Positions 8,061 through 12,775 of a stretch of 64,000 nt of DNA are shown in pieces. The position numbers and the translations under genes are program-made. The notes under the pieces were generated by a model. The model did no database searches and was not told the DNA's origin. It saw only the letters and a list, made by a program, of their open reading frames with translations. Location: positions 28,917 to 92,916 of the forward strand of contig JALHPY010000004.1 in the NCBI GenBank assembly GCA_022842305.1, in the 5' to 3' direction. Source of the DNA: Rubrivivax sp. Its GTDB lineage: Bacteria > Pseudomonadota > Gammaproteobacteria > Burkholderiales > Burkholderiaceae_C. Each line of letters begins with the position of its first letter. The first letter of the stretch is position 1.

Positions 8061-10253
8061 TCAGGCCTCCTTCACGAAGCTGACGAAGTTGCTGTGGATG
8101 CTGGTGCTGCCCATCAGGGGATCGGTGGCATAGCGCGTGTTCAGGCCGCCCGCGCTGGCGCCCTTGAGGTAAGCGGTCTTGAGCGCCGGGTTGGCGTGGC
8201 CGAAGCCGTAGACCATGTAGACGCAGTCCTCGCGGATGCGCTGCGTGGCCTTGACGCGCACGCGGTTGCTGAGCACGCCGTCCTGGTTCTTGAGCTGCAC
8301 GTAGTCGCGGTGCTTCAGGCCCAGGCGCGTGGCGGTGGCGGTGTTGATCCAGACATCGTTGTCGGGCATCAGGTCGTGCAGCAGCGGGTTGGTCTGGGTG
8401 CGGCTGAAGGTGTGCACCGGCGCGCGCCCGGTGATCAGCCTGAAGTGGCCTTCGGGCGCCGGCTCCTGCGGTTTGTACTTGGGCACCGGGTCGAAGCCGG
8501 CCTGCGCCAGGCGCTCGGACCAGAATTCGACCTTGCCCGAGGGCGTGTCGAAGCTCAGCGCGAGGCCGGTCTCCACCGTGATGGGCTGCTTGGGGCCCAT
8601 GATCACGCCCTGCTTCTTGAAGTCCTGCCAGTTGTGGCCCGACTTCTCGATGCGGTAGGACAGGTATTCCTCCATGTCCTTGAAGGGCATGCAGGCGCCG
8701 ATGCCCAGCCGCTGCGCCAGTTGCTGGGCGATCCACCACGAAGGCTTCTGGTCGTGCGGCGCGGCCACCACGGGCTGGCGCAGCGATGTCCAGCCGGTGC
8801 GGCCATAGCCCACCAGCAACTCGTCGTGGCGCTCCAGGAAGGTGGTGTCGGGCAGGATCACGTCGGCGTAGCCGGCGATTTCGCTGGGCACGGTCTCGCA
8901 CACCACCAGCAGGTCCAGCTTGTCGATGGCCGCCAGTGTCTGGCGCGGGTCGGGCAGGGCCTGCATCAGGTTGGTCGAGTAGACGAACCAGCCCTTGATC
9001 GGATACGGCTTGTCCGAGAGCGTGGCGTCGCGGATGCTGGTGGTGATGCCCTCGTCGGCAAACGGGTACTGCACGCCGTCGGCGCCGTCGGCATGCGGCT
9101 TGTCCGACTTGGGGTAGGCCGGCAGCGGGAAGGGGGCGATCTTCATGCCCGCGGCGATGAACAGCCCACCCTTGCGGCCCCAGCTGCCCATCAAGGCGTT
9201 GAGCAGGGCCACGGCGCGGCTGCGCTGGGCGTCGTCGCCGTACCAGTTGACGCGCCGGCCGGGGTGGATGATGGTGGCCGGCCGGTGGCTGGCGAATTCC
9301 AGCGCCGCGGCCCGGATCAGCGCGGCGGACACGCCGGTTTCTTCGGCCGCCCAGTCGACGGTGTAGCCCTTGATCTCGGCGGCGAACTTGTCGAAGCCGT
9401 GGCCCCACTGCTCGACGAAGGCGCGGTCGTAGCGGCCCTCGGTGACCAGCAGGTTCATCCAGGCCAGCAGCAGCGCGGTATCGGTACCGGGCTTCACCGG
9501 CAGCCAGTACTTGGCCTTGCTGGCGGCCACCGAGAAGCGCGGGTCGACCACGATCACCGGCACGCGGCGCTCGATCGCCTGCGCAAATTCCTGCACCTGC
9601 GAGTTGTGCATGTTCTCGCCCAGGTGCGAGCCGATGAGCACCAGGCAGTCGGTGTCGCGGATGTCGGTGGGCTCGGGCGAGCCCACGCCGGCGCCGAAGG
9701 TCAGCTGGAAGCCGACATCGCGCGCGCCGCGGCACTGCGCATACGAGGGCCCGGCGATGTTGATCGCGCCCCAGCTCTTCATCATGTGCTGGATGAAGCG
9801 CTGGCCGAAGCCGTGGTTGAACAAGGCCATCGATTCCGGGCCGTGTTCGGCCTTGATCTTGCCCATGCGTTCGGCCACGAAGGCCAGGGCTTCGTCCCAG
9901 CTGGCGGCTTTCCACTGTTCCTTGCCGCGCTCGCCCACGCGGATCAGCGGCTGGCGGATGCGGTCGCTGTCGTAGTGCGCGCCGACGGCGGCGGTGCCGC
10001 GTGGGCACAGCCGGCCCTGGCTCTGCGGGTCCAGCGGGTTGCCCTCGAACTTCCAGAGCTTGCCGTCGCGCACATGGGCGATGCCGCCGCAGCGCCAGAA
10101 GCACATCTCGCAGAAGGTGGGAGTGGTGGTCACCTGGCCTTCGGCCGGCGCGGCGGCAAAGGCCTTGTGCAGGTCCGCGGTGCCGGCCAGTCCTGCGGCG
10201 GCAGCGGCGGCCCCTGATAGGGTCAGGAAGCGGCGGCGGTTGAGTTGTGGCAT
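8061..10253 (-). CDS. Tat-exported molybdopterin oxidoreductase catalytic subunit (PsrA/PhsA-like)
   Basis: Tat signal MPQLNRRRFLTLSGAAAAA; CEMCFWRCGG…LCPRG Fe-S motif; candidate Cys Mo ligand PSYAQCRGARDVG; start chosen at 10253. Confidence 0.88.
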   Translation of the reverse strand: MPQLNRRRFLTLSGAAAAAAGLAGTADLHKAFAAAPAEGQVTTTPTFCEMCFWRCGGIAHVRDGKLWKFEGNPLDPQSQGRLCPRGTAAVGAHYDSDRIRQPLIRVGERGKEQWKAASWDEALAFVAERMGKIKAEHGPESMALFNHGFGQRFIQHMMKSWGAINIAGPSYAQCRGARDVGFQLTFGAGVGSPEPTDIRDTDCLVLIGSHLGENMHNSQVQEFAQAIERRVPVIVVDPRFSVAASKAKYWLPVKPGTDTALLLAWMNLLVTEGRYDRAFVEQWGHGFDKFAAEIKGYTVDWAAEETGVSAALIRAAALEFASHRPATIIHPGRRVNWYGDDAQRSRAVALLNALMGSWGRKGGLFIAAGMKIAPFPLPAYPKSDKPHADGADGVQYPFADEGITTSIRDATLSDKPYPIKGWFVYSTNLMQALPDPRQTLAAIDKLDLLVVCETVPSEIAGYADVILPDTTFLERHDELLVGYGRTGWTSLRQPVVAAPHDQKPSWWIAQQLAQRLGIGACMPFKDMEEYLSYRIEKSGHNWQDFKKQGVIMGPKQPITVETGLALSFDTPSGKVEFWSERLAQAGFDPVPKYKPQEPAPEGHFRLITGRAPVHTFSRTQTNPLLHDLMPDNDVWINTATATRLGLKHRDYVQLKNQDGVLSNRVRVKATQRIREDCVYMVYGFGHANPALKTAYLKGASAGGLNTRYATDPLMGSTSIHSNFVSFVKEA

Positions 10254-10323
10254 GGGGTTTGGGCTGGACGGCTCAGGCGCCCCGGACGGGGCAGCGATGG
10301 GTCGCCGGTCTGCAGCGCTTCGA

Positions 10324-10337
10324 TACCCATAAGGGTA
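10324..10337. promoter_or_regulatory. CsoR/CstR-like operator TACCC-ATAA-GGGTA
   Basis: perfect 5-bp inverted repeat within GATACCCATAAGGGTAATC upstream of the molybdoenzyme gene; G-tract dyad resembles CsoR-family operators. Confidence 0.5.
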
Positions 10338-10358
10338 ATCACGCGGTCGCTTTCCGCA

Positions 10359-10372
10359 CTGATCCATGTCAA
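10359..10372. promoter_or_regulatory. FNR/ANR-type dyad CTGAT-CCAT-GTCAA
   Basis: 8/10 match to TTGAT-N4-ATCAA, 35 bp (centre to centre) upstream of the TACCC/GGGTA dyad relative to the minus-strand operon. Confidence 0.55.
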
Positions 10373-10409
10373 GCCCCTGGCCGCAGCGTTGCGCGAATCT
10401 GCGCCAGCG

Positions 10410-10584: not shown

Positions 10585-10875
10585 ATGAACGAACACATCA
10601 ACGAAGAACAGCGCACCGAGATCCTGAACCGGCTCAAGCGCGCCGAAGGCCAGTTGCGCGGCATCCAACGCATGATCACCGACGGTGACACCTGCCTGGA
10701 CATCGCCGCGCAGATGGCCGCCGTGCGCAAGGCGCTGGACAGCACCTACGTGCGCATGACCGTGTGCTTCATGCAGCACGAGATGCAGCAGCGCCTGGGC
10801 ATGAACGACGGCCAGGGGGCCGAGTTGCATTCGGTGCTGGACGACGTGCAGGTGCTGCTGGGCAAGCTGCGTTGA
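10585..10875 (+). CDS. CsoR/FrmR (DUF156) family transcriptional repressor, CstR-like
   Basis: MNEHINEEQRTEILNRLKRAEGQLRGIQRMI…DTCLDIAAQMAAVRKALDSTYVRMTVCFMQHEM; both Cys conserved, His of the metal site not conserved. Confidence 0.88.
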   Translation: MNEHINEEQRTEILNRLKRAEGQLRGIQRMITDGDTCLDIAAQMAAVRKALDSTYVRMTVCFMQHEMQQRLGMNDGQGAELHSVLDDVQVLLGKLR

Positions 10876-11900
10876 CCGCGCCTCAGGCCTCGCCCGCGCG
10901 CTGGCTGGCGCTCAAGCACCTCTACCCCGGCTGGTTTGCCGTGGTCATGGGCCTGTCCGGCCTGGCGCTGGCCTGGCACCGCGCCGCCGCCGTGATGGGC
11001 GACGCCGCCGGCGCGCTGAGCTGGGTGTTGGGCGCACTGGCGGCGCTGGTGTTCGCGGTGCTGGCGCTGGCCGGTGTGGCGCGCTGGCGGCTGCATCCCC
11101 AGTCTTGGGCCGAAGACCTGCGCCACCCGGTGCGCCACAGCTTCGTGGCCGCCCTGCCCATTTCGGTGCTGCTGCTGGCCACGGTGGCGGTGGCCGGCGG
11201 CTTGCACCTGGGCGCGCTGGCGCCACTGGTGCTGGCACTGTGGTGGCTGGGTGCACTGCTGCAGTTGGGCGTCACGCTGTGGGTGCTGTCGCGCTGGTGG
11301 CGCGGCCCCGCCGCCGGTGGCCTGGTGTGGGCCAGCGTGACACCGGCGCTGTTCATCCCCATCGTCGGCAACGTGCTGGTGCCGCTGGCCGGTGTGCCGC
11401 TGGGCCAGCCCGAATGGTCGGCGGCGCAGTTCGGCGTGGGCCTGCTGTTCTGGCCGCTGGTGCTGGGCCTGCTGCTGACGCGGATCGCGCTGCAGGGCCT
11501 GTGGCCCGAACGCCTGATGCCCGCGGCCTTCATCCTGGTGGCGCCGCCGGCGGTGGTGGGCCTGGCGGCGCTGCAGTTCGGCGCGCCGGTGCTGGTGGGC
11601 TGGGCGCTGTGGGGCATCGCGCTGTTCACGCTGCTGTGGCTGCTGCCGCTGCTGCCGCGCATCGGCCAGCTGCCCTTCGGCCTGCCGCACTGGGGTATGA
11701 GCTTCCCGCTGGCCGCCTTCACCGCGCTCACGCTGCGCCTGGCGCCCCCGGGCTGGCCGTCCATGCTGGCCGTGGCGCTGCTGGCCGTGGTGTCGCTGCT
11801 GATCGCGGCGCTCACGCTGGCCACGCTGCGCGGCCTGCGCAACGGCAGCCTGCTGGTGGCCGAGACCGTGGCCGTGGCGGTGGCCGCACCGCCGGGCTGA
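10872..11900 (+). CDS. TDT/SLAC1-TehA family anion (possible sulfite) channel/exporter
   Basis: HLYPGWFAVVMGLSGLALAWHRA; 10-TM-like; probable TTG start overlapping the repressor stop. Confidence 0.75.
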   Translation: MTAPQASPARWLALKHLYPGWFAVVMGLSGLALAWHRAAAVMGDAAGALSWVLGALAALVFAVLALAGVARWRLHPQSWAEDLRHPVRHSFVAALPISVLLLATVAVAGGLHLGALAPLVLALWWLGALLQLGVTLWVLSRWWRGPAAGGLVWASVTPALFIPIVGNVLVPLAGVPLGQPEWSAAQFGVGLLFWPLVLGLLLTRIALQGLWPERLMPAAFILVAPPAVVGLAALQFGAPVLVGWALWGIALFTLLWLLPLLPRIGQLPFGLPHWGMSFPLAAFTALTLRLAPPGWPSMLAVALLAVVSLLIAALTLATLRGLRNGSLLVAETVAVAVAAPPG

Positions 11901-11911
11901 AGCGCGCCCGT

Positions 11912-12775
11912 TCAGGCCCCGTGCCTGAAGACGACGGTGCGCCGGCCGTTGAGCAGCACCCGGTGCTCGGCGTGCCAGTGCACGGCGCGCGCCAGCACCA
12001 CGTTCTCGACGTCCTTGCCCAGGCGTACAAAGGCCTCTGCATCCAGCGTGTGGTCCACGCGCACCGTGTCCTGCTCGATGATCGGGCCCTCGTCCAGGTC
12101 GGCGGTGACGTAGTGCGCCGTCGCCCCCACCACCTTGACGCCGCGCGCGTGCGCCTGGTGGTAGGGCCGCGCGCCCTTGAAGCTGGGCAGGAAGCTGTGG
12201 TGGATGTTGATGCAGCGGCCTTCCAGCCTCTGGCACAGGTCGTCGCTGAGCACCTGCATGTAGCGCGCCAGCACCAGCAGTTCGGCGCCCGACGCCGCAA
12301 AGCGCTCGAGCAGCTGCGCCTCTTGCGCCGCCTTGTCGTCCTGCAGCGGCAGGTGGTGGAAGGGCAGGCCGTACCAGTCGACCAGACGGCGCAGCTCGGC
12401 ATGGTTTGAGACCACGCCCACCATGTCCACCGGCAGCTCGCCGCTGTGCCAGCGGTGCAGCAGATGGTTGAGGCAGTGCCCGTGCTTGGACACCGCCAGC
12501 ATCACCTTCATGCGCTGCGTGGCGTCGAACAACTGCAGCTGCATGTCGAAGCGCTGCGCCACCGGCGCCATCGCCAGGCGAAAGTCGTCCAGCGTGGCGA
12601 AGCGCGTGCCGGTGGCGCGGAACACGGTGCGCATGAAGAACAGGCCCGTACCTTCATCGCCGAAGTGCGAGGACTCGGTGATGAAGGCCTCGCTGGAGGC
12701 CAGCGCAGAAGCCACCGCGGCGACGATGCCCACGGCGTCGCCGCAGCGGATGTTGAGAACGTAGTGCGGGGACAT
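11912..12775 (-). CDS. purU: formyltetrahydrofolate deformylase
   Basis: N-terminal ACT region plus formyltransferase motif NIHHSFLPSFKGARPYHQAHARGVKVVGATAHYVT. Confidence 0.93.
   Translation of the reverse strand: MSPHYVLNIRCGDAVGIVAAVASALASSEAFITESSHFGDEGTGLFFMRTVFRATGTRFATLDDFRLAMAPVAQRFDMQLQLFDATQRMKVMLAVSKHGHCLNHLLHRWHSGELPVDMVGVVSNHAELRRLVDWYGLPFHHLPLQDDKAAQEAQLLERFAASGAELLVLARYMQVLSDDLCQRLEGRCINIHHSFLPSFKGARPYHQAHARGVKVVGATAHYVTADLDEGPIIEQDTVRVDHTLDAEAFVRLGKDVENVVLARAVHWHAEHRVLLNGRRTVVFRHGA

Follow-up and report, generated by a model that had tools for sequence, protein, structure and literature searches.

A candidate composite promoter with an FNR-type box and a CsoR-family operator upstream of a psrABC-like operon in Rubrivivax sp.

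The psrABC-rhodanese-YeeE operon of this Rubrivivax sp. appears to be preceded by a composite FNR and CsoR-family promoter that would act as an oxygen-AND-sulfur gate (probability about 0.78), with protein binding, transcription start, repression and signal all predicted from sequence comparison. FNR, an ANR-type [4Fe-4S] oxygen sensor, would bind TTGACATGGATCAG when oxygen is absent and, acting as a class II activator, would recruit RNA polymerase to a promoter without a -35 element and with a weak -10, TACCCT. The neighbouring CsoR-family protein would cover the -10 and the start when bound to ATACCC-N4-GGGTAA and so block the polymerase. It would be released when its two conserved cysteines receive a signal, sulfane sulfur (persulfide or polysulfide) being the most likely one. 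Since the CsoR-family oligomer would exclude the polymerase with or without bound FNR, the two inputs would form an AND gate, in which expression of the operon requires both the absence of oxygen and the sulfur signal.

Both boxes are found in the 331 bp intergenic gap between the divergent genes psrA (start at 10253, minus strand) and csoR (start at 10585, plus strand), within the 64,000-nucleotide stretch of contig JALHPY010000004.1 that was analysed, here called the window (Table 1). The operon has the gene set of PsrABC/PhsABC systems, with a Tat-signal molybdenum subunit, a ferredoxin subunit and an NrfD membrane subunit in one operon. The TDT/SLAC1 exporter gene adjoins csoR in several relatives as well. 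A purU-like gene (window 11912-12775, minus strand) adjoins csoR-TDT, as it does in Rubrivivax sp. A210 (L218), where psrA is elsewhere; csoR-TDT-purU therefore looks like the older neighbourhood. Divergent from the first YeeE gene (yeeE1), at window positions 4778-4969 (plus strand), there is a small Lys/Ala-rich secreted peptide of about 63 residues with a C-terminal GGC and no family match.

Table 1. Genes and predicted promoter elements of the window
Feature	Position	Strand	Evidence or comment
YeeE/YedE-type sulfur transport protein, second half	3506..4252	-	Pfam Sulf_transp, DUF6691
YeeE/YedE-type sulfur transport protein, first half (yeeE1)	4102..4662	-	Pfam Sulf_transp
Secreted three-rhodanese-domain protein	5027..6421	-	Pfam Rhodanese in 3 stretches; N terminus MVRLITLC
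psrC/nrfD-like membrane subunit, 350 aa	6457..7509	-	Pfam NrfD PF03916, 140 bits
psrB-like four-cluster ferredoxin subunit, 179 aa	7520..8059	-	Pfam Fer4_11 and others; NrfC/DsrO/TtrB-type NCBIfam matches under cut-off
psrA/phsA-like molybdopterin reductase catalytic subunit, Tat-type signal, 730 aa	8061..10253	-	NCBIfam PhsA PRK15488, 522 bits, below the curated cut-off of 694; Pfam Molybdopterin, Molydop_binding, Molybdop_Fe4S4
Candidate CsoR-family operator ATACCC-ATAA-GGGTAA	10323..10338 (core TACCC-N4-GGGTA 10324-10337)	.	11/12 specified positions of ATACCC-N4-GGGTAT; overlaps proposed -10 and start
Proposed -10, TACCCT (TAnnnT)	10332..10337	-	21 bp past the FNR box, within the operator; predicted start near 10324-10326; from alignment of homologous promoters
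FNR/ANR-type box TTGAC-ATGG-ATCAG (plus strand CTGAT-CCAT-GTCAA)	10359..10372	-	9/10 consensus positions; proposed class II activator site, centre about -40.5/-41.5 of the psrA promoter
CsoR-family repressor, 96 aa, Cys37 and Cys61, divergent from psrA	10585..10875	+	Presumed reader of the dyad; Pfam PF02583, 70.5 bits against a cut-off of 22.8
TDT/SLAC1-family exporter, overlaps the csoR 3' end	10872..11900	+	Pfam SLAC1, 157 bits

The window sequence reads gataccc-ataa-gggtaatc (10322-10340) and ctgat-ccat-gtcaa (10359-10372). An earlier reading made from the sequence alone, referred to here as the sequence-only reading, had described an FNR/ANR-like dyad and a CsoR/CstR-like dyad 35 bp apart, and both are present where it put them, with centres at 10330.5 and 10365.5 and thus that distance. 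The exact TACCC-N4-GGGTA pattern occurs at 3 places in the 5.19 Mb genome versus 8 for its reversed control, so that a chance match within the intergenic gap has a P of about 5e-4 or less. When the search is widened to the 16 bp ATACCC-N4-GGGTAT with up to one mismatch, the same 3 places are found genome-wide and 1 is found with the control. The FNR-like box, compared with TTGAY-N4-RTCAA, has a P of 0.015 in shuffles of the 400 bp upstream region, and exact TTGAY-N4-RTCAA is enriched in the genome (20 places versus 4 for the control). All of these genome-wide counts come from pattern searches. The single-genome figures make both boxes likely but decide neither; conservation across genomes does. 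A reading of the dyad as a terminator was rejected.

Homologous promoters were collected in a scan of 84,980 species genomes by psrA alignment, which gave 80 loci (all loci named in this analysis carry the prefix L); the genomes are drafts and many are metagenome-assembled. The layout of FNR box, 21 bp and dyad (22 bp in L067) is shared by the window and five dyad-bearing psrA homologues from other genomes. The FNR box and dyad are TTGATCTGAATCAT and TACCCTATGGGGTA in L067, TTGAGATGGATCAG and again TACCCTATGGGGTA in L069, TTGACCTGGGTCAG and TACCCTATGGGGCA in L072, TTGACCTACGTCAT and TACCGTAGGGGGCA in L074, and TTGACTTGGGTCAG and TACCGTATTGGGTA in L098. Across the six psrA promoters the mean pairwise identity is 0.88 and 0.77 for the FNR half-sites and 0.89 for each of the dyad half-sites; outside the boxes, whether upstream, between or downstream, it is at the random level of 0.27-0.32. 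Among 16 psrA-first operons, the dyad is present in 6 of the 7 with a close CsoR in the genome and in none of the 9 without (Fisher test, P about 0.001, computed by hand and ignoring kinship of the loci). As the loci are related by descent, such counts are not independent events. In Azohydromonas (L073), where the CsoR is 74% identical, psrA has an FNR box and no dyad. Weak TGCCC-N4-GGGTA sites at YeeE-first psr operons were left out of the counts.

In four of these genomes (L069, L072, L074 and L098) csoR is not next to psrA, which indicates that the pair of boxes belongs to psrA. Both sites are nearly palindromic and lie between divergent genes, as they might if they served the csoR-TDT unit and not psrA. 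This assignment has next to no probability, given that the pair precedes psrA in those four genomes with csoR elsewhere, and lies about 70-120 bp from psrA versus 210-260 bp from csoR. An FNR-like box upstream of psrA is kept in many homologues, including lineages without the dyad (L083-L087 and L114). Low-oxygen activation combined with CsoR-family repression, as the sequence-only reading had proposed, is therefore supported comparatively: the FNR box is kept upstream of psrA and the dyad recurs with the CsoR subfamily. In L083, L084, L085, L087 and L114, which are dyad-less, the region 60-160 bp upstream of psrA holds a common TTGAYCTATATCAG-like FNR box. These promoters also share a TGGGCC...GGCCCA dyad, which lies further upstream, and an inverted repeat of long range, CATTTCAA...TTGAAATG. 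The extra repeats possibly belong to a different second regulator.

The centre of a class II site at -41.5 sets the distance between box and -10 at about 22 bp. From the box to TACCCT this distance is 21 bp in the window, and it is 22 bp in L067 and in the L083-type promoters. Under this geometry TACCCT (10337-10332) is the likelier -10. The sequence-only reading had placed the -10 over the dyad; the element that it named, TTATGGGTAT, is less likely than TACCCT, since a TACC[C/G]T hexamer is found at this place in every dyad-bearing psrA homologue. The dyad-less psrA promoters have TGAAAT (22 bp; L083-L085, L087 and L114) or TAGCGT (21 bp; L073) in the same place. No sigma-70 -35/-10 pair was found in the intergenic region; TTGACATGG was considered as a canonical TTGACA -35 and rejected, having no -10 17 bp downstream. 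Conservation of the left half-site may come in part from promoter function alone, as TACCCT coincides partly with a -10. It could even be supposed that only the FNR box matters, that the dyad is simply a -10 element and that its likeness to a CsoR operator is accidental: TACC[C/G]T sits where the -10 would be and fits TAnnnT, and the psrA promoters of L083-L087 and L114 have an FNR box without the dyad. This is very improbable, because the right half GGGTA and its flanking T, needless for a -10, are equally conserved (0.89 and 1.00), and because the same 16-mer is found before unrelated sulfur genes and csoR operons.

The same arrangement of box, 21 or 22 bp, -10-like hexamer and dyad precedes unrelated genes at three loci. 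These are an SQR gene in L252 (21 bp, hexamer TATTAT), an SQR gene in L266 (22 bp, GACAAT) and an octaheme tetrathionate reductase gene in L256 (22 bp, CATGAT), and in each the dyad begins at or directly past the end of the hexamer. An FNR core with an exact dyad within 46 bp occurs at 14 places in 401 family genomes versus 2 for the reversed controls. The last base of the box lay outside the search pattern and agrees with the consensus, A, at 9 of the 14 places. A looser pattern, TTGA-N6-TCA-N21/24-TACC-N6-GGTA, is not enriched in the 401 genomes (6 places versus 10 for the reversed control). This rules out a widespread composite device of fixed spacing, and the composite design is therefore confined to a few gene types.

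The dyad itself is associated with homologues of the window CsoR, which were gathered from 301 family genomes, each together with as much as about 13 kb of surrounding sequence. TACCC-N4-GGGTA occurs 11 times in 53 such loci (625 kb) versus a total of 3 for 19 other palindromes with permuted half-sites. The consensus ATACCC-N4-GGGTAT was drawn from 33 sites upstream of csoR with no more than one mismatch. Most of these precede csoR by about 4.8 or 6.1 kb, a place that, where examined, is the start of an HlyD-RND-csoR operon; in the window the dyad is about 250 bp from the csoR start. A TACC-type dyad is also found 30-80 bp before yeeE1 in L072, L074, L098 and L086, the yeeE1 of the window having only a version with 2 mismatches, at 4656. 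At some csoR-homologue loci the dyad precedes a YgaP-like membrane protein gene, and octaheme tetrathionate reductase genes are among those preceded by it. A second exact dyad in the host genome touches a TACAAT hexamer and is followed about 85 bp later by a Tat-signal rhodanese gene. The genome of L069, that of the cultured relative Rubrivivax sp. A210, has two more exact dyads, before tandem rhodanese and AhpD-family genes, and Azohydromonas has one flanked by rhodanese and type III SQR genes. This fits the dyad being a recurrent site of the neighbouring CsoR subfamily on sulfur genes in many genera, as judged from its distribution. Some of the targets (RND pump, ccoG and OsmC) are not obviously sulfur genes.

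Several further occurrences were recorded. In L257, L258 and L259, three genomes from a single genus, ccoG (cbb3 oxidase assembly) is preceded by an exact dyad and a perfect FNR box separated by 39-40 bp. In L263 and L264, TACCCAGATGGGTA is found before a PhsA/Soe-like molybdopterin oxidoreductase gene, and TTGAGGAATCTCAA, next to it, matches the FNR consensus weakly. AhpD/CMD-family genes are found behind dyads of the same type in L253 (identified by profile) and in L239 and L240 (similar N-terminus only), which suggests that a thiol or disulfide reductase may be in the regulon. The third exact dyad of the host (L232:5830, which is C11:14829) is flanked by small cytochromes c and an MtrC-like multihaem cytochrome; some 0.9 kb upstream of it, past an HypE-like gene, there is a perfect FNR box, TTGACCAGGATCAA. 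No tie between this dyad and sulfur genes was found; it may be due to chance and was set aside as a sulfur-gene site.

Cys37 of the regulator aligns with the X cysteine of solved CsoR proteins, with Phe62 at the Y position and Glu66 at the Z position. Cys61, one residue before Y, is invariant in an alignment of the subfamily (30/30), and Cys37 is present in 28 of the 30. The regulator has neither His nor Cys at the other ligand positions of the CsoR family. It is not a copper CsoR, lacking the X-Cys/Y-His/Z-Cys set, nor is it CstR, as its cysteines are 24 residues apart versus 29 and it has Glu at Z. It also scores only 30.7 bits against the NCBIfam FrmR cut-off of 133 bits, and the only other CsoR-family gene in the host genome is beside formaldehyde-detoxification genes, as named from their sequences. 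Of the operator description "CsoR/CstR-like", the CstR part is apt only loosely, the second cysteine position of CstR being absent.

The signal is most likely sulfane sulfur, with the Cys37/Cys61 pair as persulfide sensor, a reading suggested by the target genes and by the behaviour of CstR (PMC5480029) and YrkD (PMC9918477). TTHA1953 is a further cysteine-controlled sulfur repressor of the CsoR family (PMC10318464). The same two-site promoter might instead respond to sulfite, an electrophile or organic peroxide, or a metal. Such a signal would suit the family csoR homologues, most of which are in an HlyD-RND-csoR operon and some with OsmC or a TDT exporter, and the presence of the dyad at ccoG and AhpD/CMD genes. 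TDT-family exporters include sulfite pumps. A signal of this kind is nonetheless unlikely, if a serious candidate. The regulator lacks the copper ligands Y-His and Z-Cys; for formaldehyde the genome has a separate paralogue, next to genes named from their sequences as formaldehyde-detoxifying; and the targets (psr, SQR, rhodanese, YeeE and the tetrathionate reductase family) indicate sulfur. A sulfur species as the second input, like the binding of either protein, is an inference from sequence.

The host genome encodes a complete FNR (an ORF in L171) with CSSCNLRELC, a further HTC cysteine and an ETVSR recognition helix; FNR residues like those of the ETVSR helix read TTGAT-N4-ATCAA (PMC4505428). 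It encodes eight CRP-family proteins, at least two of them with an FNR-like recognition helix. A second FNR-like protein (L170, host contig C43) has lost its N terminus at a contig end. The activator could thus be another FNR-type protein, including one responsive to NO. DNR, NnrR and FNR have the box in common, and were it read by a protein of the DNR/NnrR type the first input would not be oxygen. This is improbable given that the genome has a complete FNR with all of its cluster cysteines, and that FNR typically has anaerobic reductases among its targets (PMC5434802 for nrf). On this evidence the likeliest reader of the box is FNR itself, though it is not the sole candidate.

The promoter resembles FNR class II promoters (FF-41.5 and E. 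coli nrf) in having one FNR box, here at a predicted position of about -41.5, a -35 that is poor or missing, and an anaerobic reductase operon (PMC4505428, PMC5434802). It differs in its second input, a predicted CsoR-family operator over the -10 in place of NarL/NarP, IHF, Fis or NsrR, and in the distance to the predicted -10, 21 bp as opposed to the ideal class II spacing of 22 bp. The regulator resembles CstR of Staphylococcus aureus and YrkD of Bacillus licheniformis, small CsoR-family repressors over rhodanese, sulfite exporter and SQR/PDO genes, the YrkD targets being shared with a second regulator, NreBC (PMC5480029, PMC9918477, PMC10318464). Unlike these systems, the partner input here would be FNR and the targets include predicted sulfur-reducing enzymes; the CstR cysteines, C31 and C60, are 29 apart, whereas those of the window regulator are 24 apart and Glu is at Z. 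TTHA1953 of Thermus thermophilus likewise belongs to the CsoR family, represses sulfur genes and has two cysteines (C39 and C68) and a 4 bp operator spacer (PMC10318464). Its operator, TACNNTACNNNNGTANNGTA, however, has no CCC/GGG run, and it controls sulfur oxidation with targets far from its gene. The Streptomyces CsoR operator is a similar pseudopalindrome, ATATACCCC...GGGGTATAT (PMC3902906), but it has an N5 spacer and a longer G-tract and belongs to a copper sensor in which Y-His and Z-Cys are present. The psrABC genes of Shewanella oneidensis are also under CRP/FNR-family control, although by Crp and not Fnr, and the part of that report consulted describes no CsoR-family input (PMC4412017). 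No description of an FNR and CsoR-family pairing was found in the open-access literature searched. The predicted promoter follows a known principle, FNR activation with a local repressor over the -10, and would be new in its unusual CsoR-family partner.

A wider proposal, put forward tentatively and at slightly less than even odds, is that the regulator represents a new Burkholderiales branch of the CsoR family with its own thiol pair, Cys37/Cys61. The branch would be a general sulfane-sulfur repressor acting via ATACCC-N4-GGGTAT, the operator having been added several times independently to class II FNR promoters (psrABC, type III SQR and octaheme tetrathionate reductase). The sensing chemistry becomes directly testable, since the analysis points to a CsoR subfamily whose cysteine pair is unusual and to its candidate target operons across many genera, and the promoter supplies exact base positions for mutation. 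Control of sulfur-reducing respiratory enzymes is poorly known, and this promoter suggests a two-input answer in betaproteobacteria.
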